Positions 1 through 64,000 of a stretch of 64,000 nucleotides of DNA are shown one piece after another. Location: positions 54,249-118,248 of the forward strand of contig JAULBX010007440.1 in assembly GCA_032358255.1 (NCBI GenBank). Direction: 5' to 3'. The translations under genes and the position numbers were made by a program. The stretch is from Heterotrichella gracilis. Taxonomy: Eukaryota; Sar; Xanthophyceae; Tribonematales; Xanthonemataceae. The notes beneath the pieces were generated by a model. It was not told the origin of the DNA. It saw only the letters and a list, made by a program, of their open reading frames with translations, and did no database searches. How positions within the stretch are numbered: the first letter of the stretch is position 1; the number at the start of each line of letters is the position of its first letter.

Positions 1-282
1 GGATGTGTGAGGATACGCCGGGGGAAAGGGTAAGGGTGTGAGTGGGACGTGTAGGTGGGTGTGCGCTGCGAGGGGAAGGGGAGGTGTGAGGGGGGGGGGT
101 CGAGGGCGGCGGCAGACGGCGCGGGTAAAGAGTAAGGGTGTGGGTAAGGGTAAGGGTGTGAAGTGGGATGTGTGGGTGTGCTGTGCCGCTGGGTTTGCAG
201 CAGGCAGACCTCCTTGCTCTGCTCACCCTAAACAATACCCTTACCCTAACCCCTAGCTATCTACCCTAGCCCTACACCCTAC

Positions 283-600
283 CGTGAGCGGTGCAGCTGG
301 GTCTGCAGCAGGCAGATCTCCTTGCTCTGCTCCCCAATCACCACCTGCTCCCAAGCCAGCTCATCCACAAAGGGCCTTTTCTTGGGGGCAAGGGGGGCGA
401 CCACCGGTGGGCGGTTGTTGGGGGTGAAGCACGAAGTGGCGTTGGCGGAGGTGGGTGTGTCGCACTCAAGGGGGGAGTCGTGGTGGTGGTGGTCGGAGGG
501 GGAGTCCTCGGAGACCGTGCAGGGGAGGTGGTGGTGGTGGTGGTGGTGGTGGTCCGAGTCGCACGAGGGGGAGGGGGAGGAGGGCACCCGGCGCTCGTTG
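283..600 (-). CDS. Exon of an unknown His-rich protein (gene continues past the left edge)
   Basis: One open exon of 318 nt lies between a good acceptor (CCCCACAG at 601-608) and a donor (CG|GTAGGG below 283). It begins NERRVPSSPSPS, runs through a stretch of eight histidines and a second run of four, then Ser/Thr/Pro-rich sequence, then a basic-to-charged tail (PLAPKKRPFVDELAWEQ) ending in a heptad-like stretch, IGEQSKEICLLQTQLHRS, that could form a coiled coil. A partial copy of the exon end (the SKEICLLQTQ codons) lies at about 185-224, as seen at other exon junctions in this window. I do not recognise the family. The low-complexity composition makes non-coding sequence possible, but the matching splice sites and the junction copy argue for a real exon. 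Confidence 0.4.
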
Positions 601-3600
601 CTGTGGGGAGGGGGGTGGGGGGTGGTGAGAGGAAGGAGTGAGTGGGGTGTGGCGGGTAGGTGCACACCCTTCTGTAGGGTTATGGGCACTTGGGGTTTGG
701 GACCAGGGTTGCACAGACTAGGGTGGGCACGGTTTAGACGGGAGTGGCGTAACAAGCATGCGTCATGGTGGTGGCACAAGGGGTGGGTACCCGGATAAGG
801 GGCGGCACGGTGGCCAAGTGGGCGGCATCTCAGACGGGCCTGGTGGAAAGGTATCGAGCTTAACACAACTACCTTCTCGCAGTACAATAGGCCTAGGCAA
901 AAGCGTGGGCGAGGCGAAGGTTCGACGGTGCGCGCGGAAAAACTTTTCGGGGGCCGCTGGGAAAAAGTGCAGGCGCCTGGCCCGCTAGACCCTCCTACAA
1001 CCTCCAACCACGGAAACCATATCCCAAGCTGGACAGCTCAACCCGAGGCCCAGGGACAGACGGGTGAGCCTCCAGCCACGCATTGGGCAAAGACAACGGC
1101 GCGAACGACGCTCGCATCGTCCCCTGACGAATCCATTGTCGCATGTGACTTTTGGGTCCCAAGGCATGCGAGGCGAGTCATGACTAGTCAGCCCACAAAC
1201 CACGTCACTTTGCTCAAGCCGACCAAACTCGATCAAATTCGAAGAAAAGGCAGTGTGCGCCTTCGAGGCAATGGACTAGGCCTGAGAGTTGGGCTTGCAT
1301 GTCAAGGGTAGAGGTGGGCAATTGGCATCGGGATGGCACCATCGCGCCCCATTGCGCACAGCGGCCAAAAGTGGCCCATACGAACGGGGCTGTCAAAGAA
1401 ACTAGTCCAACGAATTAAAGACAGGAAAAGGAAACCAAGCAGCTGACATTCCCGTGTTGGGATAGGGGTACTGGGCATTTGGGTTCACGGGTTGTGGATT
1501 ACTCAGGCAATGCACCCATGCACCCCATGTCCGGTACCACGCCATGGGACACGTGTGTGAGCCAAAAACAGGCGCATTGGCGAAGAAAAAGCGAGCTAGA
1601 CAGCCAGATTACCCACTGAAACGTTCCAGTAGTGCATGGCAGCAAGGGAACGGAGAGTGATGTGGGTTGGCGTGGAGGATACCTGACGCATTGGGGTACC
1701 CAGCGTGCAATGTGGCCAGGGCCACTTTCTGGCCATCTCCCGTTTAAAAAAACCACAAACACTGTGCAAAACCCACAAGGGACTGCTAAACAGGAAGAGG
1801 AACGCGATCCTACCGGATCGTTGCCCAACTACGCGCACCTACTACCTAGCTAGCGTTGCACGCCCAGCATGCTCTCAGGTACAAGCGTTTGAACCCTGGG
1901 CTGACAAGGACCTTGGAAAAAGACAGGCAGCATCTTGGAATCTGGCCAGGAAACCAATTGGGCCGCCGAGTGCGGCGAAGGGTGGGTTTCCCGCGAAGAG
2001 ATGGAAGCATCTGGTGGCATATACCGTACCTCACTGGCGACCTGGTGCGAATTGGGGCTAGGCTCAGGTAGCTGCACATGCTCTCGCCACACTGCTCGGC
2101 CTTGCTCCCCATTTTCCTCGCTTTCTTCTCAAATGACAGCGCCATGGCTGGGAATCGGCAGAATGAGTCTACCGTTACAACCCGTTGTAGTGGATGTAGG
2201 AGCAATCGAGAAATATCTAGCAATGCAGGTCGCGCAATGGCCACACAAGCCTCCAGCACCCACGAACGTGCAGGGGGAACAACACGGCAAACAGGCGCAG
2301 CAAAGCGGATCAACCGGCACAGAAGCAAGGAACGAGTTGGGATCGACGATCTTGGGTGGGTAATGGTGGCAATGTGCATAAGGAAGCCGCCTTACAAGGT
2401 GGACGCAAGTTGGCGTGGGAGGTCCAAACAGGTGCGCGTGAAATTTAAACTGGGCGGCTGGACACGTTTCGGTCCCGCCCGCACCCTTTTTTTTGAATTT
2501 TGAAAACGGTGCGCGCGATTCCCTGCAACGTGGCACAGCCAGGATCTTCCCTGGCTTTCACCGCCCAATAATCACCTGCCACATCAGCGATTATCCACCC
2601 CCTGCCCCGCAGTTAATCGAGTTCAAGGGGAGGATTAACCTCACATTCCACCCCAACGAGGACGTGAAAAGAGCGAAAAGGTCACATTCCACATATGGCC
2701 AGCCCACTTTTCCGCTGACAGGGCAGCTTTTTCACCCGCGGCGCACGCAAGGCACACGCCTGGCACGCTGCCTTGTCACATCAGATCACAAATGAAGGGC
2801 GTCCATAGGCTGCAGCGTTTTGGGCCTGCAGCAGCTGCCCAGCCACCACAAGCCACAACTCCACCCCTTGGCTGTGAGTGGTGCCAGTGACTCAGCACCT
2901 TCTGGACAGGGTGTTCGATGAAAACTCCTTTCATGCCTTGCTCATGCCTCAATGGTGACCAAAAGGTCACCTCAGCTGGGGCCATCAGGGGGGTACATTT
3001 CCTAGCTAGAACCTGGTCTTGAATCAAAACAGTTTTCAAATAAGAACACTTTCTGACCTGGGTGTTGGATTACCGTATATCTTCTTTCATGCCTTGCTCA
3101 TGCCTCATTAGTGACTTAGGGTCACCACAGCGACAGCCATCAGGGGAAGTACTTTTCCTAGCTAGAACCTGGTTCTGAAGCAAGGACAGGTTCAAAGAAC
3201 AAAAACCCACAGGCAGTGTGTAACCCACAGCGGCATGGCCACTACACTATTGGATCTTGTTGCTACCTTGGGCATGGAATGCCGAGTGTGTTGCAGACAC
3301 TGTCTGTACAATACAGGGTGAGCAATTGATAGAGGACCACTTCTCCCAGCATATGTATGTACAGTCCCAAGCTACAATGATACGGGCTGGAGCCATGCAT
3401 GGCGAGTGTGGCCCATGTGGCATGCCCTTGTGCACACTGGCGAAGTAGGATAGCTAGGCGTGCAGCACACTCCCTGTATACCCTATCCAGTCTGAGACCA
3501 TGACGCCATTATTACACTTTATGGTTTCATACATCAAACTATATGGATATCTCACTTGTTGGTGGCAGGCTGTGTGATGTCCAATTATGCAATGGGGGAC

Positions 3601-5471: not shown

Positions 5472-5692
5472 CTGCAATGGGGAAGGTGGGGGGGGGGGTC
5501 AGTGGCGGGATGGCAACAGGTGTTGTCAGGGACAATGAGATAACCCTAAAACCCTTAGCCCCAAACACGCATGGTCAGGAACAGGGCAGCAATCTTCCAA
5601 AGTGAGGCCCATGGGGTTTGCAGAGTTGCAAAGTTTTGAACCCCTTGATATGGTTTACCACCCCTGCCCTTCGCAGCAGCCCTCTTGAAACC

Positions 5693-42800: not shown

Positions 42801-45800
42801 AAAATGCCTTTTAACTGTTAACTACGGTAGTTACAACCCACGCCAGCTGATGGCGCTGCATGGGGAGTATGGCAGCCCTGATGACATGCGGGCGCTGGTC
42901 GATGCGGCACATGGCCTGGGGTGAGTGGGTGGGAAAATCCCCCTCCAAAAGTAGCTGGAGCTTCCGTCAAGAACCCTAAGAAAGCCCTAGTACATCCACT
43001 GTTGTTAACTGTTAAAATGCCTTTTAACTGTTAAATACGGTAGCTACAACCCACGCCAGCTGATGGCGCTGCATGGGGGGTATGGCAGCCCCAATGACAT
43101 GCGGGCGCTGGTGGATGCTGCGCACGGGCTGGGGTGAGTGGTAGATTATCGCGCTGGGCAAGAAACGCATGGGGCAACAATAACTCGCGCTCCAGTGATC
43201 ATAGACATTGTGCTGCACCACGGACCCCTGTCGGCAAAACCCTGTGGGAGTGTGTTGTGTGCCTCGCCCCACCCCATGGCATGCCAACCACCACCACTGC
43301 ATACCTGCTATCACACACGTTGTGCCTAACTCCTCCACCCAGACTCACCCACCCACCTTTCACCCGCTATCCCACCCCTTGTAGGATCGCAGTGATCATA
43401 GACATTGTGCTGCACCACGGGGCACCCGATGGCAACACGCTGTGGGAGTATGATGGGTGGGGCCCGGAGGGGAGCGGGGGCATCTACCATGAACTGGCCG
43501 CAGACACCCAATGGGGACGCAACTGGGCATTCTGGAAGGGAGAGGTGCGCGGAAACCCTAGCAAGAAAACCCCTGAAGAACAACATACACAAAAGCGTTG
43601 CCCTGAGCCGGCATCCCATTGGGGTGCAACTATGCGTTCTGCGTTCAATGATATGGAGCCATTGTGTTCCAACTCTGTGACCATGTTCAAAGGTTTTACA
43701 CAGATGCATCCTCTCTGCAGGTGCTCACCCTATCTCCCCCTTTAAAGCGCACATCGTTACTCTGTTCTAACACCCACTTTGCAGGTTGTGAACTGATTAT
43801 CGCCACAATGTGCCACAATGTCTGTATTGATGCCAGTGCATTGTGCTTTCAGATTGTGACAATGCTGGAGGCATCCTGCGAGCTGTGGCTGGGCACCTAC
43901 CGCTGCGACGGGCTGCGATTTGACAGCGGTAATGACCTGCCCACCCAGGTCATCCAGCATCTGACCTGGAAGCTCAAGGAGGCCTTCCCGGGGAGGCTGC
44001 TCTCGGCAGAGGTGGGCTGATGGGCTTGGGATGACTAGGATTTCTTGGTGAATATATGGGCGTTCATTCCGAGGTTTCTGGCGGGGTATTTTTAGGGGTT
44101 TGGGGCTTATGGGTGGGCGGTGATGACCTGCCCACCCAGGCCATTCAGCACCTCACATGGAAGCTCAAGGAGGCATTCCCGGGGAGGCTGCTCTCGGCAG
44201 AGTTGCGCTGATGAGCTTGGGATGACTAGGATTTCTTGGGGAGTATTTAGGCGGTATATTGAGGCTTTTCTCTCCGTGTGTCGAGAAGATTTCAAAGTTC
44301 TTGGATGGCGGCAACGGGCGCCCACCCCGGTTACCCAGCACCTCACTTGGCGGGTGAAGGGCGCATATGTGTAGAATGAACCCGCATCTCCAGTCCCTTG
44401 ATTCTAATCACTTAACCCTAAACCCCCTCCCCCCAGGTCACCCCCAAGAACCCCCAATCCATCCACCACCTGGGCTTCCAAACCCTTAATCCCAAACCCT
44501 AAACCCTAAACCCTAAACACCCTTCCTCCAGGTGACCCCCGAGAACCCCCAGTCCATCCACCACCTTGGCTTCCACAGCGTGTGGGTGCACTCTGGCTAC
44601 TTTGACATCATCCAGCAGCACAAGGCGCTGGGCAGGGGGCACCATGGGGGCGGTGACTGGGCAGCAGGTAAAACCCTAGGGTAGGGTTTGATGCCACCTG
44701 AATTACCCTATAATAGGGTTTTCGGTGCACTCTGGCTACTTTGACATAATCCAGCAGCACAAGGCGTTGGGCAGGGGGCACCACGGGGGAGGCGACTGGG
44801 CAGCAGGTGGGTGGGGCATCCCAGAGTTAAAAGGGTGAAGGGTAATGGCAGTTGATGCACCTACCGTACTGTTGGAAACCCAACGCGCTTTATTAATTAA
44901 TTATTTGCCTGCGCGTTAGTGCGCAGTCATAATTAATTCATTATTTACGGCCTGCGCAGTGGCCGCGCGTTAGGTAAATTAACTACATTTACGATTACCC
45001 GGCCTGCGCGTTAGCTCATAACCTGGAGGCAGAATTTCGAACGACTGCAGTCGGATGAGACGCAAGTGAAAAGCGCGACTTCGTATGATATTAAAGAGTG
45101 CCCGCTTCGACGGCGTTACCTGCACGTCAAAACCCACCGCCACATCGATTCGGGTCGCGATCGTCGACTGCATGGGTTCACAATCGCTGCTGTACTGTTG
45201 GTCGTTGTCTGATAGGCCAAGACTGTCGTTTGATACGAAGGAAGGTATCAACAGCAGGTAGCAACATATACAAATTAGCGTGGGCACTAAACCCTGCTGA
45301 AAGAAAACCCTACACAAACCCTAAACCCTGAAATGAGTTTGGATTCGATATCAAGCAGCTTGATTCAAGCCCCTTTTCACACTCTGCTATTCGTAGCAGA
45401 AGACACCATGACAGACTGCAGTAGAAGCTGCCCCCCACCTGGGCCTGCAGGGCTCAGGTGTGTGGGGTGCGGAGTGGTAATTAATTGGCACTACCCCTGC
45501 GGGTTAGGTGCGCGGTAGATTAATTAATTGTGTTTTGGGGTGCGGGTTAGGTGCACGTTAGGTATATTAATTACGTTTTTTGGGGGTGCGCGTTGGGTTT
45601 CTGACAGTACGGTATGCCCGAGTGCGGATCCAAGCCCAGTGTTTTGGTAGTAAACGTGATAATTCATGCTTATTGAGACCCACTTGTTGCAGTCTGGGAC
45701 CTGTCCGGTTGCGCACCGCTATGTGCCTACACTATGGGCAAACCCTAACCAACACCCCTTTGTTATACTATAATCAAAACCCTGATACAAGATCCTATCC

Positions 45801-48527
45801 CCTCCTGCGCAGGATGGGATCTTCCTCGGCTGCGCACCGCCATGTGCCTGCACTATGGCTTTGACTCACCCACACAGTGCATCAAATACCTGCTGGGTTC
45901 ACACGACCAGGTGAGATGGATGGCTCAAACCCTAAACCCTAAACAAGGCCCACAACACATACACGCCTTACGCACCCACATGCATACGTGTATTCACCTA
46001 CGCCTGCGACTGCGTAGCGATTCAATTAAGGCTCCGCCCGTGCAACCACGCACACACTGTGTGCACAGAAACCCCCTCACATACCCGTACTCCCACCAAC
46101 CGCAGGTGGGCTGCGCTCATGGCCGCAAGTGGTGCACGGGCTACCAGATGACCAATGATGCACCTGTGTCATTACATGCACACTTTGTGTGGCATGCATG
46201 ATACTGAAAATCGCCAGTGCCTCGCATTTCACCGCCTTCCACCCACCCAGAAATACCCACCCCTCACATCCCCCCCTCTTCCCATCCCCCTTTCAGGTGG
46301 GCTGCGCCCATGGCGGCAAGTGGTACGAGGATTACCAGATGATCGGGGGCCAGCACCGATACGCGGTGGACCAATACGGGGCCGGCAGGACCGAAGCCGC
46401 TGCCAGGGCATGCGTGCGCCTGTGGTGAGCCCTAGCTTAGGGTTTTGGTGGGGCCGTTGCACAAATCTAGTCGGGGCGTGGTAACATGTGCTGCAAGCGC
46501 TAGGCTGGAAAGTTCAGTGGCATTATCACAAAGCCTCAGGTTGAGATTGTTGGGCCAGCACAAATGTGCGGTGGATTAATACGAGCTTGTTGTAGGGATT
46601 GCAGTGGCTTGGTAGGTCATTGGGGTTCTGCCACACCCCTGTATCTGTTGGGTACCACAATGAGTTGGGACACACCCAAACCCTACCAAAAACCCTCCAA
46701 AAACCTGTCCCAAAATCCTGGCCAGGCGCCTATCAAACCCCCCACCCCTCCACCTTCACCCCCCACCCCTCCACCTTCACCCTTCACCCTTAACCTTCAC
46801 CCTCCACCCCTCCACCGGCCCCAGGCAAACCGCCAACATTGTGATAATGGGTACCAATTGGATGACACCAAAACCCTACCAACACCCTGTATTAAACCCT
46901 AAATATAAACCCCATACTTCTCCACCCACCCCAGGCACACCGCCAACATTGCGGCTGCTGGCCTGCCCATGGTGTTCATAAGCACCGAGTGGGCAACACC
47001 AAAACCCTACCCAAAACCCTCTGCAAACCCTAAGCCTGGCTGATTGCTGATCTGCTGGAATGCAACTAATAATATTAATAAACAACCTAAATTTAAACGT
47101 CCACTCCTTGCTCCCAGGCACACCGCCAACATCGTGGCAGCTGGCCTGCCCATGGTGTTCATGGGAACCGAGTGGGCGCAAGGGGGGTGGTGGGACACGA
47201 CTGAGGAGAGGAAGCCGCAGTGGGACCAGGCAGCAGACGAGGTGAGGGGTGGTGGCGGTGGTGGTGGTGGTGGTGGTGGCGGTGTGAGGATAGACCCCTG
47301 TGGGCAGTGGCGGTTCAGCCTACTCCAACTCCCACCCGATGCACACACGCACACCTTGCACACGCAGACTGGCGCATACATGGCGCCCTGTTTTAACACC
47401 CCCGCCCACCCTCACACCCTGCCGATCCCCCACAGATTGGCCAAGACATGCAGAAGTTCTTTGGTGCCGCCAACGGCCTGCGCGCCACCCACCCCGCCCT
47501 GCGCAGCGGCTGGGCCAATGTGTTGCATGAGGACCGGCCCAATGGGATCATGGCCATTGAGCGCACGGGGGAGGGTCTGCCGCGCATGGTGGCGGTGGTG
47601 AATGCAGGTGGGCGGTGGTGGTGGCGGCGGTGGTGGTGGTGTGTGTTGGGGTGGTTGGGTGGGTGTCAACGTGTTGCATGAGGATTGGCCCAGTGAAATC
47701 ATGGCGATCGAGCGCACTGGGGAGGGTGTCGTGCATGGTGGCGGTGGTGAATGCAGGTGTGTGGTAATGGTGGTATTCGTGGCGGTTGTGGTGGTGGTGG
47801 TGGCGGTGGTGATGGTTGTGTGTGTTGGGTATTCCAAGGGGGGAAATTTGCTTCACAAGGATAGGCCCAATGCGATCATGGCGTTTGAGCGCAGGGGGGA
47901 GGGTCTGCCGCGCATGGTGGTGGTGGTCAATGCAGGTTGGCGGTGGTGGTGGTGCTCGTGGTAGAGGTGGTGGCGGGTGGATGGAAAGGCCTTAGGTGCG
48001 GTTTGTTGGGCCCAGTTCTCCACCTCCCTAATGGACCAATTCCACCGCCTTGCGCTTACGTCGCCTGTTGCTTGTCTCCTCATGTGCGTAACCCCCACAA
48101 CCTCCCCACCCGCAGGCAAGGGCTTCTGGCAGGGGGACAACCGCTACGGGGTGTGGGTGGGCGGGGGCTCGTTCAAGCAGGTGAGGGTGGGTGGGGGTTG
48201 AGGAGTGGTGGGGGTGGTGTGAAATCCTGTTTCCTGTTCCTGCATTGGTGCCGAAGGCTCTTTTGCACGCTAGGATTGGGAAGCGCTCCATTTGATTTTA
48301 GAGAGGTTACACAAATACCCTCAACCCTACCGCACTCAAGCCCCGGAAAGACCCTAAGCTGTAAACCCTAAACCCTACCGCAGGTGTTCACCAGCCAGGC
48401 GCCCGAGTTCAAGGGGTGGGAAGAGGCCGAGAGCAACGGGGAGGAGGTGTTGTACAACTCGGATGGCCAGCTGTGGATCAAGTTGCCCCAGCAATGCACC
48501 CTGGTGTTTGAAGAGGTGGTAGTGTAG
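39873..48527 (+). CDS. GH13 glucan branching-enzyme-like protein, probably plastid-targeted
   Basis: Fourteen exons join exactly into 675 aa: 39873-40061, 40295-40456, 40761-40881, 41452-41630, 42218-42408, 43385-43544, 43853-44011, 44532-44667, 45813-45910, 46297-46424, 47118-47241, 47436-47607, 48116-48180 and 48384-48527 (stop). The first 63 residues are Ala/Ser/Thr/Arg-rich with few acids, like an algal plastid transit peptide. A CBM48-like block follows (GASFRVWAPHAAHVELE), then the GH13 barrel: region I IIDIVLHH (D287), region II CDGLRFD (nucleophile D358), region III LLSAE (acid/base E387) and region IV GSHDQ (H463, D464), followed by ANIVAAGLPMVFMGTEWAQG and a C-terminal beta domain. 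Branching enzymes cut alpha-1,4-glucan and rejoin it as alpha-1,6 branches in starch synthesis. Between regions I and II it has a Trp/Gly-rich stretch (LWEYDGWGPEGSGGIYHE) where classical plant enzymes differ, so it may belong to a divergent subgroup; substrate not proven. All four GH13 motifs are intact. Confidence 0.85.
41083..41931 (+). repeat. Echoes of branching-enzyme exon 4 on both sides
   Basis: Before the real exon (41452-41630) lie a weak copy (about 41083-41172) and a better one (41262-41360) that repeats the acceptor and GRKLLRRDPYGRTRDYDTE. After it lie two donor-side copies (about 41724-41812 with LIYELHVGSSTPE, and 41897-41931). Only the central copy is complete on both sides. 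Confidence 0.75.
42503..43134 (+). repeat. Array of echoes of branching-enzyme exon 5, interrupted by a gap
   Basis: The last 30 or so codons of exon 5 (YNPRQLMALHGGYGSPDDMR and on) plus the donor GGGGTGAGTGG recur at about 42503-42583 (running into the gap), 42684-42710 (emerging from it), 42829-42920 and 43045-43134. The last two copies are joined by a nearly identical spacer containing TTAACTGTTAAAATGCCTTT. Confidence 0.85.
42584..42683. other. Assembly gap, 100 N
   Basis: Exactly 100 undetermined bases, a conventional placeholder length, so the true size is unknown. It lies inside the array of exon 5 echoes: the same codons are interrupted on the left and resume on the right. The gap is in an intron and does not affect the modelled protein. 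Confidence 0.98.
44124..44365 (+). repeat. Two echoes of branching-enzyme exon 7
   Basis: The first (about 44124-44202) repeats DDLPTQAIQHLTWKLKEAFP and RLLSAE, but its donor is changed from GAG|GTGGGC to GAG|TTGCGC. The second (about 44325-44362) keeps only the VTQHLTWRVKG part. Both lie in the intron after the real exon (43853-44011). Confidence 0.75.
44880..45600. repeat. Recurring TTAATTAA / TGCGCGTTAG motifs in a long intron
   Basis: Within intron 8 of the branching-enzyme gene, blocks of ATTAATTAATTA alternate with CCTGCGCGTTAG or close variants. They occur about five times in two clusters (44885-45012 and 45490-45600). The texture differs from the heptamer-rich introns around it. No open frame is supported. 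Confidence 0.6.
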
Positions 48528-50142: not shown

Positions 50143-50161
50143 GGCAATCCCAACCGACGCA

Positions 50162-53100
50162 ATGGGGGCACAGCTCGACCCCGCTATCCAGATCCCCGTG
50201 CAAGACCCTCCAGTTGAACCTTCTACCGCTGATTTCCCTTCACCCGTGGGGGCAAACGAGTCCGAGACCGCTCAGCAACTGCAGGAGGTCGCGGTTCCGA
50301 TCATGGATCTGGAGAGCATGCCGTACATCGGCACCATCCCGGGGGTCCCGGAGGTCCCAGCGGCGGGGGGCGTCACGGCCGCCGTGCTCGCCTGGAAGGA
50401 CCTGTCGGTGTTCAGTAAGACCAAGAATACAAAGACGCTGCTCAACAAGGTGAGTATTGCAACTATAAGAGTATCTGGGGCCCTACATTCTGTCAAGGAA
50501 ACCCTTTCATAACCCTAGACAACGGTACCCCATGCAGCTTTAGGTTTAAACCCAGCAAAATACCATGGTGAGACAGCTGTGGCTTTTGGGCGGTCAGGGA
50601 CGTCTCTGGATGGGGCAAACCCACCCTGTTCAATACCCCATTTGCCTGTTCCCCGCCGCAAATACCCAGTCAAAAACACTGAAACCCAGCATCAAATACC
50701 CTAGCAAAACCCTAACAAAAGTAGCAGAGTAACAGACCCCCTCACCCCCTCACCCACCCCAGGTTGCTGGCAATGTCAGCGGTCGGTTCTGGGCGGCCAT
50801 GGGCCCATTTAGATCACACCAAAATTCCATGCTGAATGCGCTTTGGCCTGCCCACCGTTTTCCCCCAATGAATGAACAATTCGAAGAGAAACTCCTTTTA
50901 AAACCCCAGAAAATTCCCACCATATCTGATTTTCGCCCAATCTCCCCTCCCCCAGGTTACCGGCAAAGTCAGCGGCGGGTTCTGGGCGGTCATGGGCCCC
51001 TCCGGGTCGGGCAAAACCACCCTGCTCAACGCGCTTGCCTGCCGCCTGGATGCCAATGTGCGGGTAGAGGGCGAGCTAAGGCTGAATGGGAGGGCCTACT
51101 CCAATGCCGAGCTGAAGCGCATGAGCGGCTATGTCATGCAGGTGGGGGAAGGCTTGGTGCTGAGGGTAATCTAGAATTTTGTTTTGTGTGTGTGTGGTTT
51201 TGGGGGCAATTTTTGGTGTGGTGATGGGCATTTTTTGGTTGGTGTGTGTGGGGAGGGCGAGCTAAGGCTGAATGGGAGGGCCTACTCCAATGCTGAGCTC
51301 AAGCGCATGAGTGGCTACGTGATGCAGGTGGGGGGGTCTGAAGTGGTGGGTGTGGGGGGAGGGAGTTGAGGCGTGTTGTGGGGTTTTGAAAGGGTTTTCA
51401 GAGGCTGAGTTTAGGAGGGTACAACCCGGTATAAGAACCCTCCCAGGTCCCAATAAATCCGCTATCCCCTGGGAATACTGGGACGGTCTCCTGCTCGCGC
51501 ACCTGACCGTTGGATAAACCCTAGGTTAGGGCATTTTATCCCCTAAGAGAACCCTTGTTGAACCTAAAAATATCTAGCCCACACCGCACAGCTGCGGCTA
51601 AGGTCTTTTGAAACCCGGGCAAAACCCTAATTGAACCCTCCTGTGGTGCAGGATGACCTGCTGAATGCGCACCTGACAGTGGAGGAAACCCTAGGGTACA
51701 CGGCAGAGCTGCGGCTAGGGTCCACGCTGGACAAGGCTGAGCGCAGGGCACGGGTGGTCGAGGTGATTGGCCGCATGGGGCTGGAGCACTGCAAGGGGGT
51801 GCTCATAGGATCGCCCATGCGCAAGGGGATATCAGGTAAGGGGGATAGGGAACTGGGGAGGGGTTCATGGACTTTTAGTGCCCTCCGTTCCTGTCATCAT
51901 AATGTTGAACAAGTTCAATAACATTATGCTGTTAAAAGGGTTTGTAAAAGGGGTGTTTTCTCGATAGAACAGGTAATAGCCAGCATACTCCCTGACTTGA
52001 GCACTGCAAGGGGGTGCTCACAGGATCACCCATGCGCAAGGGGATATCAGGTGAGGGGTGAGGGACTACCTAGGAGGGAATTTTAAGGTATTGTTTCAGG
52101 GCAATTAGGGTATTGTTTAGGATAGTAGGTTCTCATGCTGAACCAATCTGGGGACTAGTTTCCACCCGATAGACAAAACACTAGGACAAAACCTGCAAGA
52201 ACCTTCCAATGTCTAGAAAAATCCTCGGAAGACACTGGAAGTCCCTTGTATTGCAGGCGGCGAGCGCAAGCGCGTGAGCGTGGCTATGGAACTGCTCATG
52301 CGCCCCCTGCTCCTCTTCCTGGATGAGCCAACCTCGGGACTGGACTCCACCACCGCCTTGGGGCTGTGCGCCCAGCTGCAGGCGCTAGCGCACTCGGGTG
52401 CCTGCACGGTTGTGTGCACTATCCACCAGCCTCAGTCCAAGATCTTCCGCCAGTTCGACAGCCTCATCCTGCTGAAATCGGGGAGCATCATATACCAGGT
52501 GGGTGGGGTGGTGGAGTGGCGTGGTGGTGGGGTGTAGGGATGTAGATGGGATCCTCCTGCTACCTCGAATCAATTCCACAAATATGAATCCCCACCTGTT
52601 ACCTCAAATCAAACCCACAAACATGTACCATTTCCCCATGTCCCTATCAATAGTCCTAACACCCTAAACAAACCCTAAATCCTTACCCATAAACCCTCTT
52701 GAAAACCCTACCGCAGGGTGTCGCCCAGGAGGCGCTGGCCTACTACGCCGAAGCCGGCTTCCCCTGCCCAGCCCTCACCAACCCCGCAGACCACCTGTTG
52801 GATGTCATCACCCCCGCACTCAACGAGGACAAGGCAGGGGCTGCACAGAACGAGGAGAAGCTGATGGTCAAGTACAGGCGCCCAGAGGTGGACCTGTCAC
52901 ACGGCCAGGAGCACCAGCTGATGCAGCGGTGAGTATTTCTATAATATATTTTATGTAATTAATTAATTGGTTTTATTTAGCCCGGCGGTGGATTTGTCAC
53001 ACGGCCAGGAGCACCAGCTGATGCAGCGGTGAGTATTTCTATAATATATTTTATGTAATCAATTAATTGATGTTATTTAGCCCGGCGGTGGATTTGTCAC

Positions 53101-56100
53101 ACGGCCAGGAGCACCAGCTGATGCAGCGGTGAGTATTTATATAATATATTTTATGTAACCAATTAATTGATTTTATTTAGCCCGGCGGTGGATTTGTCAC
53201 ACGGCCAGGAGCACCAGCTCATGCAGCGGTGAGTTATTATTTATTTATCTAATCATTTAATTTATTGATGTATACCGGTATATGTATGTGTATCTAGCCC
53301 AGAGGTGGATTTGTCACATGGCCAGGAGTACCAGCTGCTGCAGCGGTGGGTATCTGCTTGGCATCAAGATCTTTGTCCAAGTCAGTGAGTCCAAGTCCAG
53401 TGGCAGGGTCCCGGGTTTCCTAGGTTTCCCCTGGCGCTGGCTCCCTTACCCTCAACCTCCACCACCACCCTCACCCCCCCCCCATCCTCACTCCCCTCTC
53501 TTCACATTTGCAGTGACATCACCCACTGGACCACCCAGTAGCCGCTCACTCAAGGAGGTGGCGCGCAAGTGGGGCGTGTTCCTCACCCTAGTGAACCTGA
53601 AATATCCACCTTTCATCACACACATCTGGCCACAACCCAATATAATACTTTCACCTTTTGCTGTCCAAACACAATTCGTTAACCCCCCCATCTCCTCCCC
53701 TCGTATTTGCAGTGACATCACCCCCTGTACCACCCAGTAGCTGCTCACTCAAGGAGGTGGCGCGCAAGTGGGGTGTGTTCCTCACCCTAGTGACCCCATA
53801 ACCCAACCTTTTAAGCCATGTATTTGGCCACAACCCAACCGGGTACTCCCACCTTTTGCTGTTCAAACTGAACTCTAACCGCGCTCCCCTCTCTTCACAT
53901 TTGCAGTGACATCACCCCCTGGACCACCCAGTACCGCGTGCTGTGTAGCCGCTCACTCAAGGAGGTGGTGCGCAAGTGGGGCGTGTTCCTCACACTGGTA
54001 GTGCAGACCATCATCATGGCTGTGCTCATCGGGACTGTGTTCCTGCAAATTGGGGACACCCAGTCGTCGGTGGTGAGGCGCCAGCCGGTGCTGTTCTTCT
54101 GTGTCGTCAACCAGGGTAAGCTTGAGCATCTCATCAGGGTTCTGGGGAGGATAGTATAGAACCCTCCTGAGGAGATGTAGGCTGGGACTGTAGCCTGTTT
54201 TTTGGTGATAGTTTGGGGGTTACGTTGGGATTCGCCCCCACCAGCCCCGATGCAACATCCCACCTACTTCACCTACCCTGTGCCCCTCACCCTAAACCCT
54301 GGAACCCTCACCTAAACCCTAAACCACGCAGGCATGTTCGGCGCCCTCCAGACCATCAACTCCTTCCCATCGGAGCGGTCCCTGGCGCTGCGCGAGCGCG
54401 CCGCAGGCACCTACTACGTCTCTGCCTACTTCCTGGCTAAGACAACCGCTGAAGCAGTGACCCAGCTCCCGGTGCCCATCATCTTCTCAGCCATTGTCTA
54501 CTGGCTCATCGGCCTGCAGGTGGGTGTTATTCAGCATTTAGGGTTTAAGATTTTGGATGTTTAGGGTTTTAGGGTTTAAGCTTTTGGGTGGAAGGTGCAG
54601 CCAAGACCACCGATGAGCCGATGCCCCACATCTTTTCCGCCATTGTCTACTGGCTCATCGGCCTGCAGGTGGGCTTGTTTCTGGTTTAGGGTTCTGATCT
54701 TTAAGGGTTTAGGGTTTAAGGTTTCCCAATCCCCGCCGCGAAGGCTGTTGCCTCCAATTTTTTCCTGTTAACCACTTTCATGGTCCTCTGCTCCTCACTG
54801 GCAGTCACGGTATCCGCCCTGTGCCAAACCACCGACCCCTCGGTCACCACCCTACCCCCTCTTCTCCCCAACCTCATAACAAACCACAAGTTTATACCAA
54901 TTTCCGCAATCCCCTCCGCGCAGGCTGTAGCCTCCGAGTTCTTCCTCTTCACCACCTTCATGGTCCTCTGCTCATACGCCGCAACCTCGCTGGCAGTCAT
55001 GGTCTCCGCACTCTGCCGAACCACCAACCTCTCAATCCCCCTACCCCCCCAACCTCTCAGAAAACGTTTCACATTTTAAAGCCACCAATTTTCCAATCCC
55101 CGCTAATTCCTACCGCGCAGGCTGTTGCCTCCAAGTTCTTCCTCTTCACCACCTTCATGGTGCTCTGCTCATAATTTATCATTTTACCTTTTTTTCATCC
55201 CACCAATCCCCTCCGCGCAGGCTGTAGCCTCCAAGTTCTTCCTCTTCACCACCTTCATGGTGCTCTGCTCGTACGCGGCAACATCCCTGGCAGTCATGGT
55301 CTCCGCCCTCTGCCGCACCACCGACCTCTCAGTCACTGTCCTCCCCATGGCCATGGAGCTTGCCCGCCTCTACGGGGGATTCTTCCTATCCCCAGCCAAC
55401 TTGCCTACCTACTTTGTGTGGCTGGATGCCATCAGCTATGTGAAATACACCTACGTGGGGATTTCCCTGAACGAGTTGTCGGGATTGGAGCTGGTGTGCA
55501 CCCCCGCGCAGCTAGCCAAGGCCAACGGTGAGCAGGAGGATGTTTAGGGGTTAGCGTTGAAAAATATAGGGTTTAGGGTTTAGGGTACATGGAGTTGGTG
55601 TGCACCCCCACGCAGCTGACAAAGGCCAACGGTGAGCAGTAGGGTGTTTAGGGTTTTTTAGGGTAACGTGGACCTAGTGTCCCATGTGTGCCTCTCTGTT
55701 TGATTCTTTGTAGGGTGTTGTGGGGAGGGGAGGGGAGGGGAGGGGAGGGTGTGTGTGTTGAGGGGAGGAAGCGGGAGGGTGTGTGCGCATTTGTTCCTTT
55801 GAAGGCGCACGGTGCACTGCATATATATCAGCGTCATCAGAAATTTCTTATATACTTATGTGCATGTAACACACAAAAATGGTACAAGCAGTGTCAGGAC
55901 AGGGCTGGGTGGCTTGATTGCTTAAGTTTGGCAAGGCTGATTGCTGATCTGGCTTTCTTGCCGGAATGCATGTATATAATATGATTCGAATTGCATTCAC
56001 ACTGTATTTGATTTATTAATGTACTTATTTGGTTTATTGTCCTGCAGGGGTGTGTCCCATGGTGGATGGGCAGCAGAAAATCGACGAGCTGGGGATGGAT

Positions 56101-56196
56101 AGCTACACCATCTGGGGATGCGCGCTGGCCCTGGTGCTGTATATTGGGATCGCCAGGACGGTGGCATTCCTGGGGCTGAGGTATATTAAGTGGTAG
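50162..56196 (+). CDS. ABCG (WHITE-type) half-transporter
   Basis: Nine exons join exactly into 654 aa: 50162-50449, 50956-51141, 51652-51835, 52257-52498, 52717-52928, 53907-54115, 54332-54519, 55221-55527 and 56048-56196 (stop). The nucleotide-binding domain comes first: Walker [10 protein letters not shown] (110-118), signature SGGERKR (219-225, split by an intron), Walker [14 protein letters not shown] (237-249) and H-loop TIHQP (H276). A linker follows, then the membrane domain with hydrophobic segments ([64 protein letters not shown]). NBD-before-TMD order and this length are typical of half-size ABCG exporters, which dimerise to move lipids, sterols or wax precursors; the substrate cannot be read from sequence. 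The upstream acceptor at 50142 shows the reading frame may begin earlier (AIPTDAMG...). Four splice-competent 48-nt exon copies lie in intron 5 and could add 16 to 64 residues to the linker after residue 371. Confidence 0.88.
52981..53345 (+). repeat. Tandem mini-exon array in the ABCG gene
   Basis: Four copies of the last 48 nt of exon 5 sit at 52981-53028, 53081-53128, 53181-53228 and 53298-53345. The first three start exactly 100 bp apart: 48 nt of exon plus 52 nt of AT-rich intron. Each is bounded by an acceptor (TTTATTTAG, or TATCTAG in copy 4) and a donor (CG|GTGAGT; GTGGGT in copy 4). Forty-eight is divisible by three and the boundaries are phase 2 on both sides, so each could be included without a frameshift, adding [16 protein letters not shown] ([16 protein letters not shown] in copy 4). 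Confidence 0.9.
53507..53795 (+). repeat. Two echoes of ABCG exon 6 start
   Basis: Copies near 53514-53595 and 53712-53795 carry the acceptor TTTGCAG, the first codons (SDITxxTTQ), then skip to [18 protein letters not shown]. In both, the segment between CAG and AGCCGCTC is shorter than in the real exon (53907-54115) and a TAG falls after the CAG codon, so neither can replace it. Confidence 0.7.
54599..55173 (+). repeat. Echoes of ABCG exons 7 and 8
   Basis: An echo of the exon 7 end ([13 protein letters not shown] plus donor) lies at about 54630-54669. Three echoes of the exon 8 start (acceptor plus [17 protein letters not shown] and more) lie at about 54742-54838, 54923-55030 and 55121-55173, before the real exon at 55221. 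The middle one extends through [18 protein letters not shown] before running out. Confidence 0.8.
55886..55975. repeat. Dispersed repeat, copy 6
   Basis: Contains CAGTGTCAGGACAGGGCTGG, GCAAGGCTGATTGCTGATCT and TTGCCGGAATGCATG, in intron 8 of the ABCG gene. A short fragment of the same family (about 47035-47063, TGGCTGATTGCTGATCTGCT) lies in the branching-enzyme gene. Confidence 0.5.
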
Positions 56197-58399: not shown

Positions 58400-59283
58400 C
58401 TAGTTGCCCCCCAGCGCGCGGCCCACTGGGCTGGCACCAAACCACACAGGCAGGGCCGCCTCACCGACCGACACCATCGGCACCGCCACCTTCAGAGCCG
58501 CCTGCGCCGCCCGCGTGGCCAGCAGCCCCTCGCGCATGCGGCGTAGGGACACCAGCTGCATATCCAACCCCTCACTGCTGGCGGTTTTGGCGGTGATGGC
58601 CGCGCGGCGGACGGCGGGGTAGGTGGTATGTGCGAAGCGTGCATAGGCGGTGGTTGCTCCCAGGATGCCGTCTGTCACCTCGTAGTCTGCATCGCCAGCG
58701 CCCTTGAGCACGTGGCTGCCGTTCACAACCTGCACATATTTGAATAATTTGCAATTTGGAAATTTGAAATCTAAGGGTTTGAATATGAGCCAGCGCGCTT
58801 GAGCACGTGGCTGCTGTCCACAGTATTCCCAGCCTGCGTAGCCTGCGCAGGGGTTGGACTCTGTACACTTAGGTATCCATATGCAAGGTACTATACTCCA
58901 TGTTACTGACTCTTGCAACCACTGCCCCTACTCCAGATGGTACAGGAACTCGTTGCACTGCGGCTACCTACGCAGCGTTTGGATTACGTAAACGGGTCAA
59001 AGCTCAAAGTTGCCGGCATATTGTATATGCATGCATTGACCAATATAATTTCACCTATCATGGCTGGGCCAGACATCAAATTATTGGTCAATGCTGGACC
59101 AAATTTTATGATAGGTAAATTTGACCATTGACCAATATAATTTCACCTATCATGGCTGGGCCAGGCATCAACAGCGTCAACAAGGGGTACTTCGCATGCA
59201 GTTCTATCCCAAACATCACCATGGGATGTGTCAAGATTCACCGCCAGTGTATGCCTGTACCATGCGGGCCTAGCCTACCCTAC

Positions 59284-59396
59284 CTTTGGGTTCACGCCCA
59301 TGCCCCCGACCCATGTCTGCCCCACAATGCCATGCATGTCCTCCAGGTCAGCGCTCAGCAAGTCGATGCCAATGTCAAGCCAAGGCTCACCCGCGG
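59284..59396 (-). CDS. Short internal exon of the RCC1/root-cap-like gene
   Basis: Listed separately because it is easily missed: 113 nt, acceptor GTGCAG, donor AAG|GTAGGG. It reads AGEPWLDIGIDLL, then ADLEDMHGIVGQTWVGGMG. It links the exon ending VYT (phase 1) to the terminal exon starting VVNGSHV (phase 0), and supplies the HGIVGQTW block expected near the end of a VWD/root-cap-like domain. Confidence 0.75.
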
Positions 59397-59719
59397 CTGC
59401 ACAAGGTGAGTGTTTAGGGTTCACGTTAGGGTTTATAAGATTTAGGGTTAAGGCGTCAGAGTTTGGTCATACCGGCTGGTGCAAGAGGGGAGTGTGGCAT
59501 CACATCTCGTTTGGGGTTTACGAATATTAGGGTTTAGGATATTAGGGTTTGGCCACATCATTGCACCAGACACTGCAACATGCTAGTCACCTGGGCGGTG
59601 GAACACGTGCGATTGCATGCGCACCTCATTGGCATACATACATATACATGACCCAGCGCAGATAATACTGCACACCTGCACCCCGGGGATCCCAAAGAAG
59701 TTTCCCCGCCCACCCACCT

Positions 59720-60640
59720 GTGTACACCGTCAGCGCAACATCCTTGGACACCAGCCTGATAGTGGCACCCTAACCCCTACAAAACCCTAAATCCTACAAA
59801 ACCTTACACCCACCTGTGTACACCGTCAGCGCAACATCCTTGGACACCAGCCTGATGGTGGCACCCTAAACCCTACAAAACCCTACACCCACCTGTGTAC
59901 ACCGTCAGCGCAACATCCTTGGACACCAGTCTGATGGTGACACCCTAAACCCTACAAAACCCTAAACCCTACAAAATCCTACACCCACCTGTGTACACCG
60001 TCAGCGCAACATCCTTGGACACCAGCTTGATGGTGGCACCCTGAACCGTACATAATCTAAAACCCTACAAAACCCTAAACCCACCTGTGTACACCGTCAG
60101 CGTAACATCCTTGGACACCAGCTTGATGGTGGCACCCTAAACCCTACATAATCTAAAACCCTACAAAACCCTACACCCACCTGTGTACACCGTCAGCGCA
60201 ACATCCTTGGACACCAGCTTGATGGTGGCACCCTAAACCCTACATTACATAAAACCCTACAAAACCCTAAACCCACCTGTGTACACCGTCAGGGCAACGT
60301 CCTTGGAGACCAGCCTGATGGTGCCACCCTAAACCCTACAAAACCCTAAATCCCACAAAACCCTACACCCACCTGTGTACACCGTCAGCGCAACATCCTT
60401 GGACACCAGCTTGATGGTGGCGCCCTATACCCTAAACCCTACAAAACCCTACACCCACCTGTGTACACCGTCAGCGCAACGTCCTTGGACACCAGCTTGA
60501 TGGTGGCACCCTAAACCCTACAAAACCCTAAACCCTACAAAACCCTAAACCCACCTGTGTACACCATTAGCGCAACATCCTTGGACACCAGCCTGATGGC
60601 GGCGCCCTAAACCCTACAAAACCCTAAACCCTACAAAACC
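59720..60640 (-). repeat. Ten-copy array of one exon end in the RCC1/root-cap-like gene
   Basis: Ten copies of the last 50 or so nt of the exon at 60954-60651, each with its donor (TACACAG|GTGGGT), lie downstream of the real exon in the intron, at roughly 80-96 bp spacing. Spacers are built of CCCTACAAAACCCTAAA-type heptamers. The copies are more similar to each other (VSKDVALTVYT) than to the real exon end (VSRDAALTVYT). Each piece is 52 nt from a possible TTTAG acceptor, so inclusion would shift the frame. Confidence 0.88.
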
Positions 60641-63600
60641 CTACACCCGCCTGTGTACACCGTCAGCGCAGCATCCCTGGAGACCAGCCTGATGGTGGCG
60701 CCCGCCCTGCCGCGGGGGTGCGCGGCGGTCAGCACGGCAATGATTATCACGTCGGGCGCCAGGCGGTAGGCGGTGCCGGGCTGCATCGCGCCGGTGAGGT
60801 CAACCCCCTCCTTCCCCACCAGCCGCACAGCCAGGGTGCCGTTGCCCCCGCCCACCTCCACCACTAAGGCGGCGGCCGGGGTGAGCATGCCGATCCTGGT
60901 CATGTAATTGTTGATGACGCGATCGTTGCCCAGGTTGGAGAACAGCGCGTTGACCTGGGGATAGGGATGTTTAGGGTTTAGGGCTTAGGGTTTAGGATTA
61001 AGGTAAGCCCAGGTTGGAGAACAGCGCCACTATCTGAAGGATGAAGGAGGGATGGTCGGTGCACATTGGCAGAGATGTTAAATGCCATTCACCACCCAAT
61101 ATCATTTTATCGCTTTGGTATCCATCAATCGACATGCAATTGTCATGAGATACAGTCTGCCTTTAAAAGGATGCCTGCATCTTTATTATGTTGGCAGATC
61201 TGATTCCATGATGACCGCTGATGTCATGTCGATGTCATGTACACTCAGCTGCCTCCATGTACACTCAGCTGCCCCCATGTACACTCAGATCCTGATCGGA
61301 TCGCTGAAGCTCAACTCAGATCGGATAAGATCAGATCAGATCAAGGTGAGGGGGGCGCATTACAGCATGGTACTTGACTGCACGCTGAACACGGCCTTAG
61401 GGTTTTAGGGTTTAGGTTTCAGGGTTTGCAAGCACCTTGTACTTGGCAGCTGACAGCACGCTGAACACGGCGTTAGGTTCAGGGTTTAGGTTTCAGGGTT
61501 TGCGAGCACCTGGTACTTGGCTGCTGACAGCACGCTGAACACTGCGTTGGGGTAGCCATAGAAATCAAACCAGGCGCCACCAAAGCCACGGAAGTGGGGG
61601 TCGCCTTCGCCGGATGCACCGGGGGGAGCCGGTGGGGTTGGGGATGGTGGTGTGGGCGGTTCTGGGGATGGTGGCTCAGGGGATAGGGGTTCTGGGGATG
61701 GTGGCTCGGGCGATGGGGGCTCAGGGGATGGTGGCTGTGGTGATGGTGGCTGTGGTGATGGTGGTTCGGGTGATGGTGGTTGTGGTGATGGTGGTTGTGG
61801 TGATGGGGGCTGTGGCAGATGGCGGTTCTGGGGATGGGGGCTGTGGGAATGGCGGCTGGGGTGATGGCGGCTGGGGTGATGGTGGTGGTGGTGGGCATGT
61901 GGACGGGGGGTTGACAACGGGGACTGAAACGGTTGACAGGGCGGTTGTCCCGGGGTCAATGCCGATCCCCAGTGCACCATTGGTGTTGCTCCCCACGCCA
62001 TAGGCGGTGGTGCCGTTCAAAATCACCAATTCCCGTGACATGCCCACAGACACTGCGGGGGCGCCGGTCCACAGCGCGATGTTTGTTGGGGCGGCAACGG
62101 AGGCGGTGGAGAGGGGTAGCGACAGCTGGCCCTGGTCATTCTTACCCCAGCAGTACACCTGGTGGGTGGGGGAGGTCATGGGTGGTTGGGGAGAGGAGGC
62201 GGGGAGGGAGAGGGGAGGGAGAGGGGAGGGGAGGGGGCAGCAGTTGCAATGCACATGGGTGAATGTAATGGAGGGGGGGGAGGGTACGAGTGGGAGGGAG
62301 GGAAGGGGCCAGCTGTAGCAAATGGCATGTCGCTGTCTATTAAAACCCTAAACCCTAAGCAGATGCGCACCATGCTGCCCGAGGCCGACCCGGAGACGTT
62401 GGTGGCCCCCGCAACTCTAAACCCTAACTTTAAGATTTGGGGCTTTAGGCTAAAGCCCTAATCCCTGAGCACATGCTCACCTTGCTGCCCGAGGGTCCCC
62501 TAAAACCCAAAACCCCAAGCAGATGCGCAACTTGCCGTTCGAGGTCATCCCGCAGGCATTAGTGGGCCCCTGCGTCACTAAACCCTAAAATTTAGGGTTT
62601 TGGGCCTTAAGCTGAAACCCTAAACCCTAAGCAGGCGCGCACCTTGCCGTCCGAGGTCATCCCGCAGGCGTTGACCGACCCTGCTTCCACGCGCACAAAG
62701 TTGGTGACGGCGGTCCCGCCGGGCACACTGGCGAGCGCGGTGGGATTGGCGGTGGGGGTTCCGGCGGGCACTGCACTCCCCAGCTGCCCGTTGGCGTTAC
62801 TCCCCCAGCAACAGGCAAGGGTGGCGGTGGAGGGAGCGCACACCGCGCACGTGAACAACTGCCCGCTGGCAATGCTCGTGCAGCCTGACAGGAGCGTGGT
62901 GGGGACGTTGGGGCCCCCGGGGACAAGCGTCGCCACGTTCAGGTTGGTCGACGCGGCGAAGCCCAGGCGGCCGCTGCTGCCTGCGCCCCAGCACGCGGCG
63001 ACGCCGGCGGCCGATGGCGAGGTGGCGACGATCGCGCACGCGTGCGCCGAACCCACGCTCAGCGCGCGCCACTCGGTGTAGCCGGCGGGCTTGGTGGCGG
63101 CGGCGAAGGCGGTGTTTTTGCCGGTGAAGCTGCCAATGCCCAGCTGGCCGGCGGTGTTGGATCCCCAGCGGTAGAGCGAGCGCGCGGAGGCGAGGGTTGT
63201 GTCTGTTGAGGTGGTGGCAAGTGCGCACGTGAACTGCTCGCCGCAGGAGATGTCCACCCACGCCACCTGCCCCGCCGGCAGGGGCACCTCCCCCAAAACG
63301 GGGGACTAATTCGAGCCTGTGGTGCTGGCCGGCAGTACCTACGAAAGAAGCGCCAAATGGTTGTTATGAAACTATTGAACAGAGGGGGAAAGTGCAGCTG
63401 GGTTAGATAGCAGGCCCAATGTACCCAATGCCCTTAACCCTAGCTAGGGTAAGTCAGCAGGTGCGGGCACCAGCAAGCAGACAATTCTCAAGACCCTAAA
63501 CCCCAGACAACAGGGAACAGCATCCAGTCAGGGACAGAACAGCTGCGTATGTACTAGAAGCAGGAGCAGGAACAATAGTGTAGGGTATCATACACAATGT

Positions 63601-63655
63601 AGGGTTTAGGATTGACCGTTGCGTGTAGTGCGCTGGCCCTGCCCACCCAGCGGTT

Positions 63656-64000
63656 TAGGGTTTAGGGTTTGCATGCCCGTTGGCCCCGTTCCCCCAGCAG
63701 TATGCCTTGGTTGCCATGCTGGTGCCGCTGGCCATTAGGGTTTCAGGGTTTAGGCAGGTTCAGGGTTTTGGGGTTTAGGGTTTTACCTGCCCATTGGCCG
63801 CGTTCCCCGAGCAGTATGCCTTGATGACCACGCTGGTGCTGCTGGGCATTAGGGTTTCAGGGTTTTGGTAGTTTTGCGGTTTAGGGTTTTACCTGCCCAT
63901 TGGCCGCGTTCCCCGAGCAGTACGCCTTGATGACCACGCTGGTGCTGCTGGGCATTAGGGTTTCAGGGTTTTGGTAGTTTTGCGGTTTAGGGTTTTACCT
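63656..64000 (-). repeat. 106-bp tandem repeat of an RCC1 exon end, running off the window
   Basis: Copies of the exon end reading YCSGNAANGQ plus the donor GTAAAACCC start at 63781, 63887 and 63993 (cut by the window end), a period of 106 bp. A more diverged copy at about 63665-63735 reads YCWGNGANG, keeps the Trp usual in RCC1 blades and has lost the donor (CATGCAAAC). Which copy is the used exon cannot be decided here. Confidence 0.8.

Follow-up and report, generated by a model that had tools for sequence, protein, structure and literature searches.

Truncated exon-edge copies in algal introns and their association with interstitial telomeric tracts

Introns in a 64-kb stretch of DNA (the window; the last 64 kb of contig C76 in a 68.5-Mb assembly of 903 contigs) contain truncated copies of the edges of the exons they adjoin, here called echoes. 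We favour, with somewhat more confidence than doubt, the explanation that echoes are the remains of recurrent short tandem duplications in transcribed regions, often bounded at or near an interstitial telomeric tract. It can most safely be said that intron duplications occur at places marked by telomeric tracts, by which no causal role is implied. For comparison, 200 kb from another contig (C2) and seven other 10-kb stretches were analyzed; some of the latter were picked since heptamer arrays were listed there, and one adjoins the window. The totals of duplication sites given below cover the 334 kb made up by the window, C2, and the other stretches.

Exon-edge copies beside splice junctions

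When the window was compared with itself, with the telomeric heptamers masked, 146 direct local matches (<3 kb) were obtained versus 1 inverted local match. Three simulated first-order Markov windows yielded 0 local matches, as did second-order Markov sequence generated in two rounds for both the window and C2. Exons were predicted with a gene finder trained on this DNA, which merges some adjacent genes and calls some echoes exons; the exons of an ABC transporter gene were built by hand and retained regardless of score. The confident set comprised 40 of the 100 exons predicted in the window and 164 of the 334 predicted in C2, weaker exons being excluded; nine window exons that were predicted on echoes or unsupported by homology had been removed by hand. 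The homology check covered eight gene models of the window, seven of them with a match.

At the 388 confident junctions, a query consisting of 10 nt of intron and at most 60 nt of the exon edge was aligned to the adjoining intron, on the side expected of tandem duplication, with a Smith-Waterman score of at least 36 as the cut-off. Copies of the exon edge were present at 25 of 76 junctions in the window (33%; 10/40 acceptors and 15/36 donors) and at 41 of 312 junctions in C2 (13%; 16/161 acceptors and 25/151 donors). On the opposite side, a copy was present at 1 of 388 junctions, and in the introns of other genes the number of copies was 0 of 1807. A sequence-only reading of the window had described such truncated copies, which stands, and had found them at nearly every junction, which overstates their frequency considerably.

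Junction-spanning pairs (n = 65, with pairs inside one array counted separately) were divided into 31 donor and 10 acceptor pairs in the window, and 13 donor and 11 acceptor pairs in C2. In all of them (65/65), the donor copy lay downstream or the acceptor copy upstream, exactly as had been described. This one-sidedness is the geometry of tandem duplication, and it requires neither a junction-directed mechanism nor selection. If a unit crossing an acceptor is duplicated, the truncated copy comes to lie upstream since it is the second copy that continues into the remainder of the exon, and the downstream exon would be the one that is spliced; if the unit crosses a donor, the same geometry always places the truncated copy downstream. 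The argument that ordinary tandem duplication would not be expected to break at one side of a junction, on which the case for junction-directed copying had centrally depended, therefore falls. As copies made by template switching at arbitrary places need not obey the rule, the ratio of 65/65 favors tandem duplication.

A total of 144 duplication sites was counted in the 334 kb, corresponding to 119 loci once overlapping arrays were collapsed. Site density per 10 kb was 10.9 in the window, 2.2 in C2, and between 0 and 12 in the seven other stretches. Only 2 of the 144 sites were located in the 39 kb of predicted intergenic DNA (a label that is gene-finder output), where ∼17 would be expected by base share. 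Identity at the sites ranged from 74 to 98% (5th to 95th percentile; median 87%), and because of this spread the process is probably recurrent. Consistent with the varied decay noted earlier, GT was lost at the aligned place in 15 of 40 donor echoes (in one owing to an N gap) and kept in 25, and AG was lost in 6 of 26 acceptor echoes and kept in 20.

Telomeric heptamers in introns

The genome has TTTAGGG as its telomere repeat: six-unit arrays of it sit at the very start of several contigs (e.g., C70, C140, C609, C717, and C770); other such arrays are found further in. Three-unit heptamer arrays occur at 834 places in the assembly; three-unit octamer arrays occur at 9 places, 0 of which are at a contig start. 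Heptamers cover 3.1% of the predicted introns, 0.9% of intergenic DNA, and 0.7% of exons. Those within introns concentrate 0–40 nt after donors and 20–60 nt before acceptors, and the same clustering, albeit weaker, was observed in the 316 introns without detected duplication. A heptamer near an intron end was present in 62 of 104 introns with duplications versus 85 of 316 introns without (odds ratio 4.0, p = 3e-9), and across 48 predicted genes heptamer density was correlated with duplication density (rho 0.74).

The boundaries of the copies were examined in unmasked sequence, since masking ends alignments at heptamers. Of the gapped sites (n = 79), 28 had a heptamer inside the left boundary and 22 inside the right one, in each case no more than 30 nt from it, compared with a background of 7.6% of windows. 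Outside the copy boundaries of gapped sites, heptamers were found in 12 of 46 cases on the left and in 6 of 40 on the right.

Before acceptors, the C strand of the repeat dominates, with a peak of the C-strand hexamer 20–30 nt upstream, like CTNAC branch-site motifs, and the G strand, which contains the acceptor-like TTTAG/G, is nearly absent. We read this strand bias as selection on splicing. C-strand heptamers 20–30 nt before acceptors may act as branch sites in the 334 kb analyzed; introns in the same DNA are GGG-rich after the donor and contain C-rich words before the acceptor. Pairing of heptamers across the intron was considered and rejected, as just 10 of the 32 introns with heptamers at both ends had them on opposite strands, and 17 of the 32 had the C strand at both.

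Genes and echoes of the window

The hand-spliced ABC transporter protein is 61–64% identical to proteins from Chlamydomonas incerta, Volvox, Gonium, and Haematococcus (best 120 of 7741 matches listed). The window is nuclear DNA; judged from this similarity, its host is a chlorophycean alga, without a close relative among these listed matches. A Pfam domain was matched by six of seven window proteins made from concatenated exons. Besides the transporter, the gene finder and Pfam indicated alpha-amylase/CBM48, subtilase-LRR, deaminase, acyltransferase, DSBA-like, and RCC1-like genes. For the gene at 58.4–61 kb, the concatenated exons gave no match to Pfam; this multi-exon model (58400-60954, minus strand) bears the longest echo array of the window. 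In a genome search with PF00005, of which 19 of 248 candidates were scored, five matches lay in single frames of >600 aa (C1, C83, C111, C145, and C331), and the assembly therefore probably includes bacterial contaminant contigs. The genes in which echoes were traced are as follows.

50162..56196, plus strand: ABCG-type ABC transporter gene with 9 exons and 16 splice junctions (exons by hand, homology)
50162-50449, 50956-51141, 51652-51835, 52257-52498, 52717-52928, plus strand: ABC transporter exons 1-5
53907-54115, 54332-54519, 55221-55527, 56048-56196, plus strand: ABC transporter exons 6-9
40295..48518, plus strand: alpha-amylase/CBM48 (glucan-branching-like) gene, echo-rich (gene finder; Pfam PF00128, PF02922)
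18475..28898, minus strand: subtilase-LRR gene, paralogue A, merged with B by the gene finder (gene finder, paralogue comparison)
30098..38339, minus strand: subtilase-LRR gene, paralogue B (gene finder; Pfam PF00082 and LRR families)

The ABC transporter gene has echoes at 8 of its 16 junctions; the acceptor at 51652 scored 35, just under the cut-off. The echoes catalogued in the window, gene by gene, are these.

50749..50852, plus strand: acceptor echo upstream of exon 50956-51141, spacing 193
51245..51334, plus strand: donor echo of exon 50956-51141, spacing ∼188, 91% identical
51996..52058, plus strand: donor echo of exon 51652-51835, spacing 215, 94% identical
52980..53353, plus strand: donor-echo array downstream of exon 52717-52928, unit 100 bp, four echoes
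53477..53791, plus strand: two acceptor echoes upstream of exon 53907-54115
54618..54673, plus strand: donor echo of exon 54332-54519 with flanking heptamers on both sides, spacing 149
54722..55173, plus strand: three acceptor echoes upstream of exon 55221-55527
55590..55643, plus strand: donor echo of exon 55221-55527 with heptamers in the stretch separating the copies, spacing 104
42494..43141, plus strand: donor-side echo array of the exon starting at 42218, spacings ∼199 and 213
42584-42683: assembly N gap inside an echo array of the alpha-amylase/CBM48 gene
44117..44253, plus strand: donor echo of exon 43853-44011, spacing 191, without GT, homology continuing into the intron
44724..44808, plus strand: donor echo of exon 44532-44667, 94% identical, homology ending at the splice site
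59711..60703, minus strand: largest donor-echo array, with telomeric heptamers and a unit of ∼96 bp; ten echoes and the end of exon 60661-60954
26367..26407, minus strand: donor echo, spacing 87, paralogue A only
33380..33440, minus strand: donor echo of exon 33481-33616, spacing 96, paralogue B only
35385..35492, minus strand: acceptor echo, spacing 203, paralogue B, common to paralogue A (25702-25792)

The predicted end (42385) of the exon starting at 42218 may be a few codons short. Exon 44532-44667, which is outside the confident set, is adjoined in its intact form by a 54-nt filler bearing heptamers. The largest array agrees with the earlier statement that copy number reaches ten. The contig itself terminates within a 98% identical 106-bp array (63648-64000); with an N gap in one array and the contig end in another, echo arrays may interrupt the assembly.

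The two tandem subtilase-LRR fusion genes provide a natural comparison for gain or loss of echoes. They have one echo in common, and each bears one that is missing in the other, by gain or loss. The shared acceptor echo is probably older than the gene duplication because it is present in both paralogues. Compared with its own exon, it is identical at 43 of 45 positions in B and at 36 of 45 in A (25499-25792 and 35182-35492), which suggests homogenisation in B, that is, gene conversion between the exon and its own echo; the alternative is re-duplication in B. Where A has its private donor echo (26367..26407), B has heptamers and no match is listed there, so that at this donor the heptamers may have been in place before the echo.

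The spacing of the copies falls into two groups with means of 97 and 190 bp. Two components were preferred over one by 33 units of the Bayesian information criterion, and unimodality was rejected (bootstrap p = 0.01; 119 loci). In the window, the second peak stands out strongly, with 18 loci at 180–219 versus 7 at 120–179. Spacing was tightest for acceptor echoes (17/26 at 179–217 and 6/26 at 79–109); abutting sites were mostly near 100 (20/42 at 80–119 and 4/42 at 180–219), and gapped sites occurred in both groups (25/79 at 80–119 and 26/79 at 180–219). Eight extra sites, from three of seven further small loci, had spacings of 74, 80, 114, 115, 136, 191, 204, and 222. No quantised intron lengths were seen among 196 confident introns. 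A nucleosome repeat may or may not lie behind the 190-bp spacing: the one repeat length found for comparison, from two promoters in Chlamydomonas, is ∼160 bp (PMC6952782), and spacings of 97 bp would have to reflect half-repeats.

Copies abut at 42 of the 144 sites and are separated by 4–20 nt at 23; the remainder has the form A-filler-A. In 19 of 64 testable echoes, the stretch between the copies aligned with sequence beyond the echo, where ∼3 were expected; such a match is what plain tandem duplication predicts. This homology was absent in the other 45, which have either a new filler or a diverged intron part next to a homogenised exon part. Ten cases were inspected by eye, and in three clear ones (C2 189654, C2 minus strand 18759, and window 44667) the homology ends with the splice site. 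The fillers in these cases are ∼34–55 nt long, contain heptamers, and supply the GT or AG beside the intact exon, and an older-looking splice site, or a remnant of it, stays with the echo.

Mechanism and alternatives

In the explanation favored here, a staggered break or a stalled fork would arise at or near a TTTAGGG tract, 50–200 bp would be filled in or re-copied, and subsequent joining would yield A-A or A-filler-A. Where the duplicated unit crosses a splice site, a truncated exon copy would be left upstream of the acceptor or downstream of the donor. Genes would survive such an event where the intact exon is still spliced; the echo would decay afterwards, sometimes perhaps being homogenised with its exon, and the intron would remain longer. 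The parts of such a repair route at telomeric tracts are known, and that they are joined into one process in this alga is what we infer. From the recurrent mechanism proposed by the sequence-only reading, local copying, the association with heptamers, and the lengthening of introns are retained, and the need for junction-directed copying is dropped.

The strongest competitor, which we nevertheless regard as unlikely, is plain random tandem duplication, with telomeric tracts as mere inhabitants of introns that have no role. The tandem arrangement of 65/65 pairs agrees with it, and so do the 65 of 144 sites at which the copies abut or nearly do so. What it should predict about placement was calculated by moving each duplication through all positions of the gene that contains it, after subtraction of the inserted length; the junction share was defined as junction sites divided by the sum of junction and intron-only sites, the latter amounting to 40 of 117, 49 of 108, and 37 of 125 sites in gene spans under three exon filters. 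Observed shares were 0.58, 0.51, and 0.63, versus 0.30, 0.26, and 0.31 expected from random placement. As exon-anchored copies decay at one end only and hence stay visible up to twice as long, a full twofold correction for detectability was applied; it lifts the expectation to 0.46, 0.41, and 0.47, which helps the competitor, but the observed 51–63% still exceeds it (p 0.015, 0.034, and 0.001). Plain duplication is further disfavored by the heptamers near the ends of introns with duplications and by the scarcity of intergenic sites, with the proviso that short intergenic DNA may itself be constrained.

The junction preference that remains beyond geometry is modest. It could speak for a mechanism that recognizes junctions and copies segments centered on them, by template switching or by repair linked to transcription or splicing, as could the genic bias and the three recent echoes in which homology extends no further than the splice site and the filler supplies the one beside the intact exon. 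We consider such a mechanism improbable: geometry already explains one-sidedness, intron-only duplications exist, the excess is modest, and the stretch separating the copies matches sequence on the far side of the echo several times more often than expected. The preference may follow from where the tracts are located, because heptamers also lie close to splice sites where an intron has no detected duplication.

Several observations weigh against duplication at telomeric tracts as well. The junction preference itself exceeds what uniform placement of duplications would give. Heptamer orientation showed no relation to the side of the copy (9, 8, 9, and 7), so the polarity expected of telomerase priming, and with it the earlier suggestion that heptamers prime the repair, found no signal. 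Direct signs of purifying selection in the duplication counts are few: units spanning a whole exon, which had been called rare, are indeed few (5, 0, and 5 under the three filters) but not below random placement (3.3, 1.5, and 5.2). Pairs with both copies in an exon numbered 4, 1, and 9 versus 12.3, 11.2, and 12.7 expected inside exons, and the sites with one copy within an exon whose edge is not reached (13, 8, and 12), which were excluded from the junction share, are poorly placed by the model. Outside the window, bimodality of the spacing was not significant (11 loci at 180–219 versus 15 at 120–179). Among echoes at least 88% identical, 22 of 34 were without inter-copy homology (rank ≤0.05). 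Finally, the basis is the sequence of one genome assembly from one strain.

Three further explanations can be given little weight. That selection retains the echoes, as decoy splice sites or splicing regulators, might be argued from the retained GT and AG dinucleotides and from the peak of C-strand hexamers where branch sites lie. We hold this to be very unlikely, as at a mean identity of 88% neutral survival would be ∼77% of dinucleotides, so that retention does not exceed chance at donors (62%) and matches it at acceptors (77%); moreover, the paralogues differ in the echoes they carry. Slightly less credible still are insertion of introners (related elements, dispersed over a genome, each of which makes up an intron) or other mobile elements, and intron birth by AGGT-site duplication. 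Intron gain by tandem duplication of AGGT repeats the exon end at the intron end, or the intron start at the start of the next exon. The insertions in introns are indeed of similar size, but in a comparison of exon edges the copies match their own junction only and none of the other introns, and the sole intron with the birth signature among 499 (27020-27132) was traced to an echo that the gene finder had predicted as an exon. Least credible of all is an assembly artefact through repeat collapse or expansion, the outcome by which echoes could have been explained away: it might account for the N gap in one array and the contig end in another, but it does not fit a median identity of 87%, variable spacing and loss of splice sites, or an echo common to both paralogues. 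The copy number in a few near-identical arrays may nonetheless be wrong.

In mammals, telomeric repeats inserted at breaks can bring target duplications with them (PMC2246262, PMC7215372). The rodent, primate, and horse insertions resemble the present tracts in having repeats of opposite orientation side by side. They differ in that plain duplications are a minority there (6 of 130 rodent, 4 of 25 primate, and 3 of 66 horse loci) and common here; in that the intron share of human insertions fits random placement, whereas here intergenic duplications are rare and tracts cluster near splice sites; and in that priming occurs in the mammalian insertions, whereas none was seen by polarity in this alga (PMC2246262, PMC7215372). 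Breaks with suitable overhangs give rise to small tandem duplications via CST and Pol alpha-primase, which also fills telomere ends (PMC8355091). The local, direct, and adjacent copies are alike in both systems; telomeric tracts at many boundaries and bimodal spacing set the alga apart. As with interstitial tracts placed in genes (PMC6410037), intronic telomeric tracts are sites of rearrangement, but the cases described there involve large experimental tracts (800 bp in an APRT intron) or gross rearrangements in yeast, whereas the tracts of the alga mostly consist of a few heptamers and its duplications span ∼100–200 bp. Like introners (PMC9860276), the duplications change introns by insertions of similar size; unlike in that system, no new introns were found here, and existing ones grow by copying their own edges. 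The pattern was not found described for algal introns in the titles and abstract beginnings of the open-access literature, which is weak evidence of novelty.

Volvocine algae have been reported to possess introns of unusual length, without the short-intron peak that is usual elsewhere; in that study, the advantage of such introns is given as unknown, the mechanism is left open, and the driver is considered likely to be ancient (PMC8226300). A bolder reading, which we regard as doubtful, is that repair at intronic telomeric tracts is the main intron-lengthening engine of this lineage, adding quanta of ∼97 and 190 bp, with telomerase, CST, and Pol alpha acting at breaks beside splice sites and the repeat supplying splicing signals. 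Equally doubtful are its details, by which C-strand CTAAA would serve as a branch site and fillers would carry a new GT or AG. If true, this reading would explain long volvocine introns without a short-intron peak. Through the echoes, intron-lengthening events can be read individually: they show graded stages of decay, are linked to telomeric repeats, and group near two sizes. If strains were compared, intron growth could be measured as a mutation process, and it could be tested whether the telomere machinery acts at breaks within genes.

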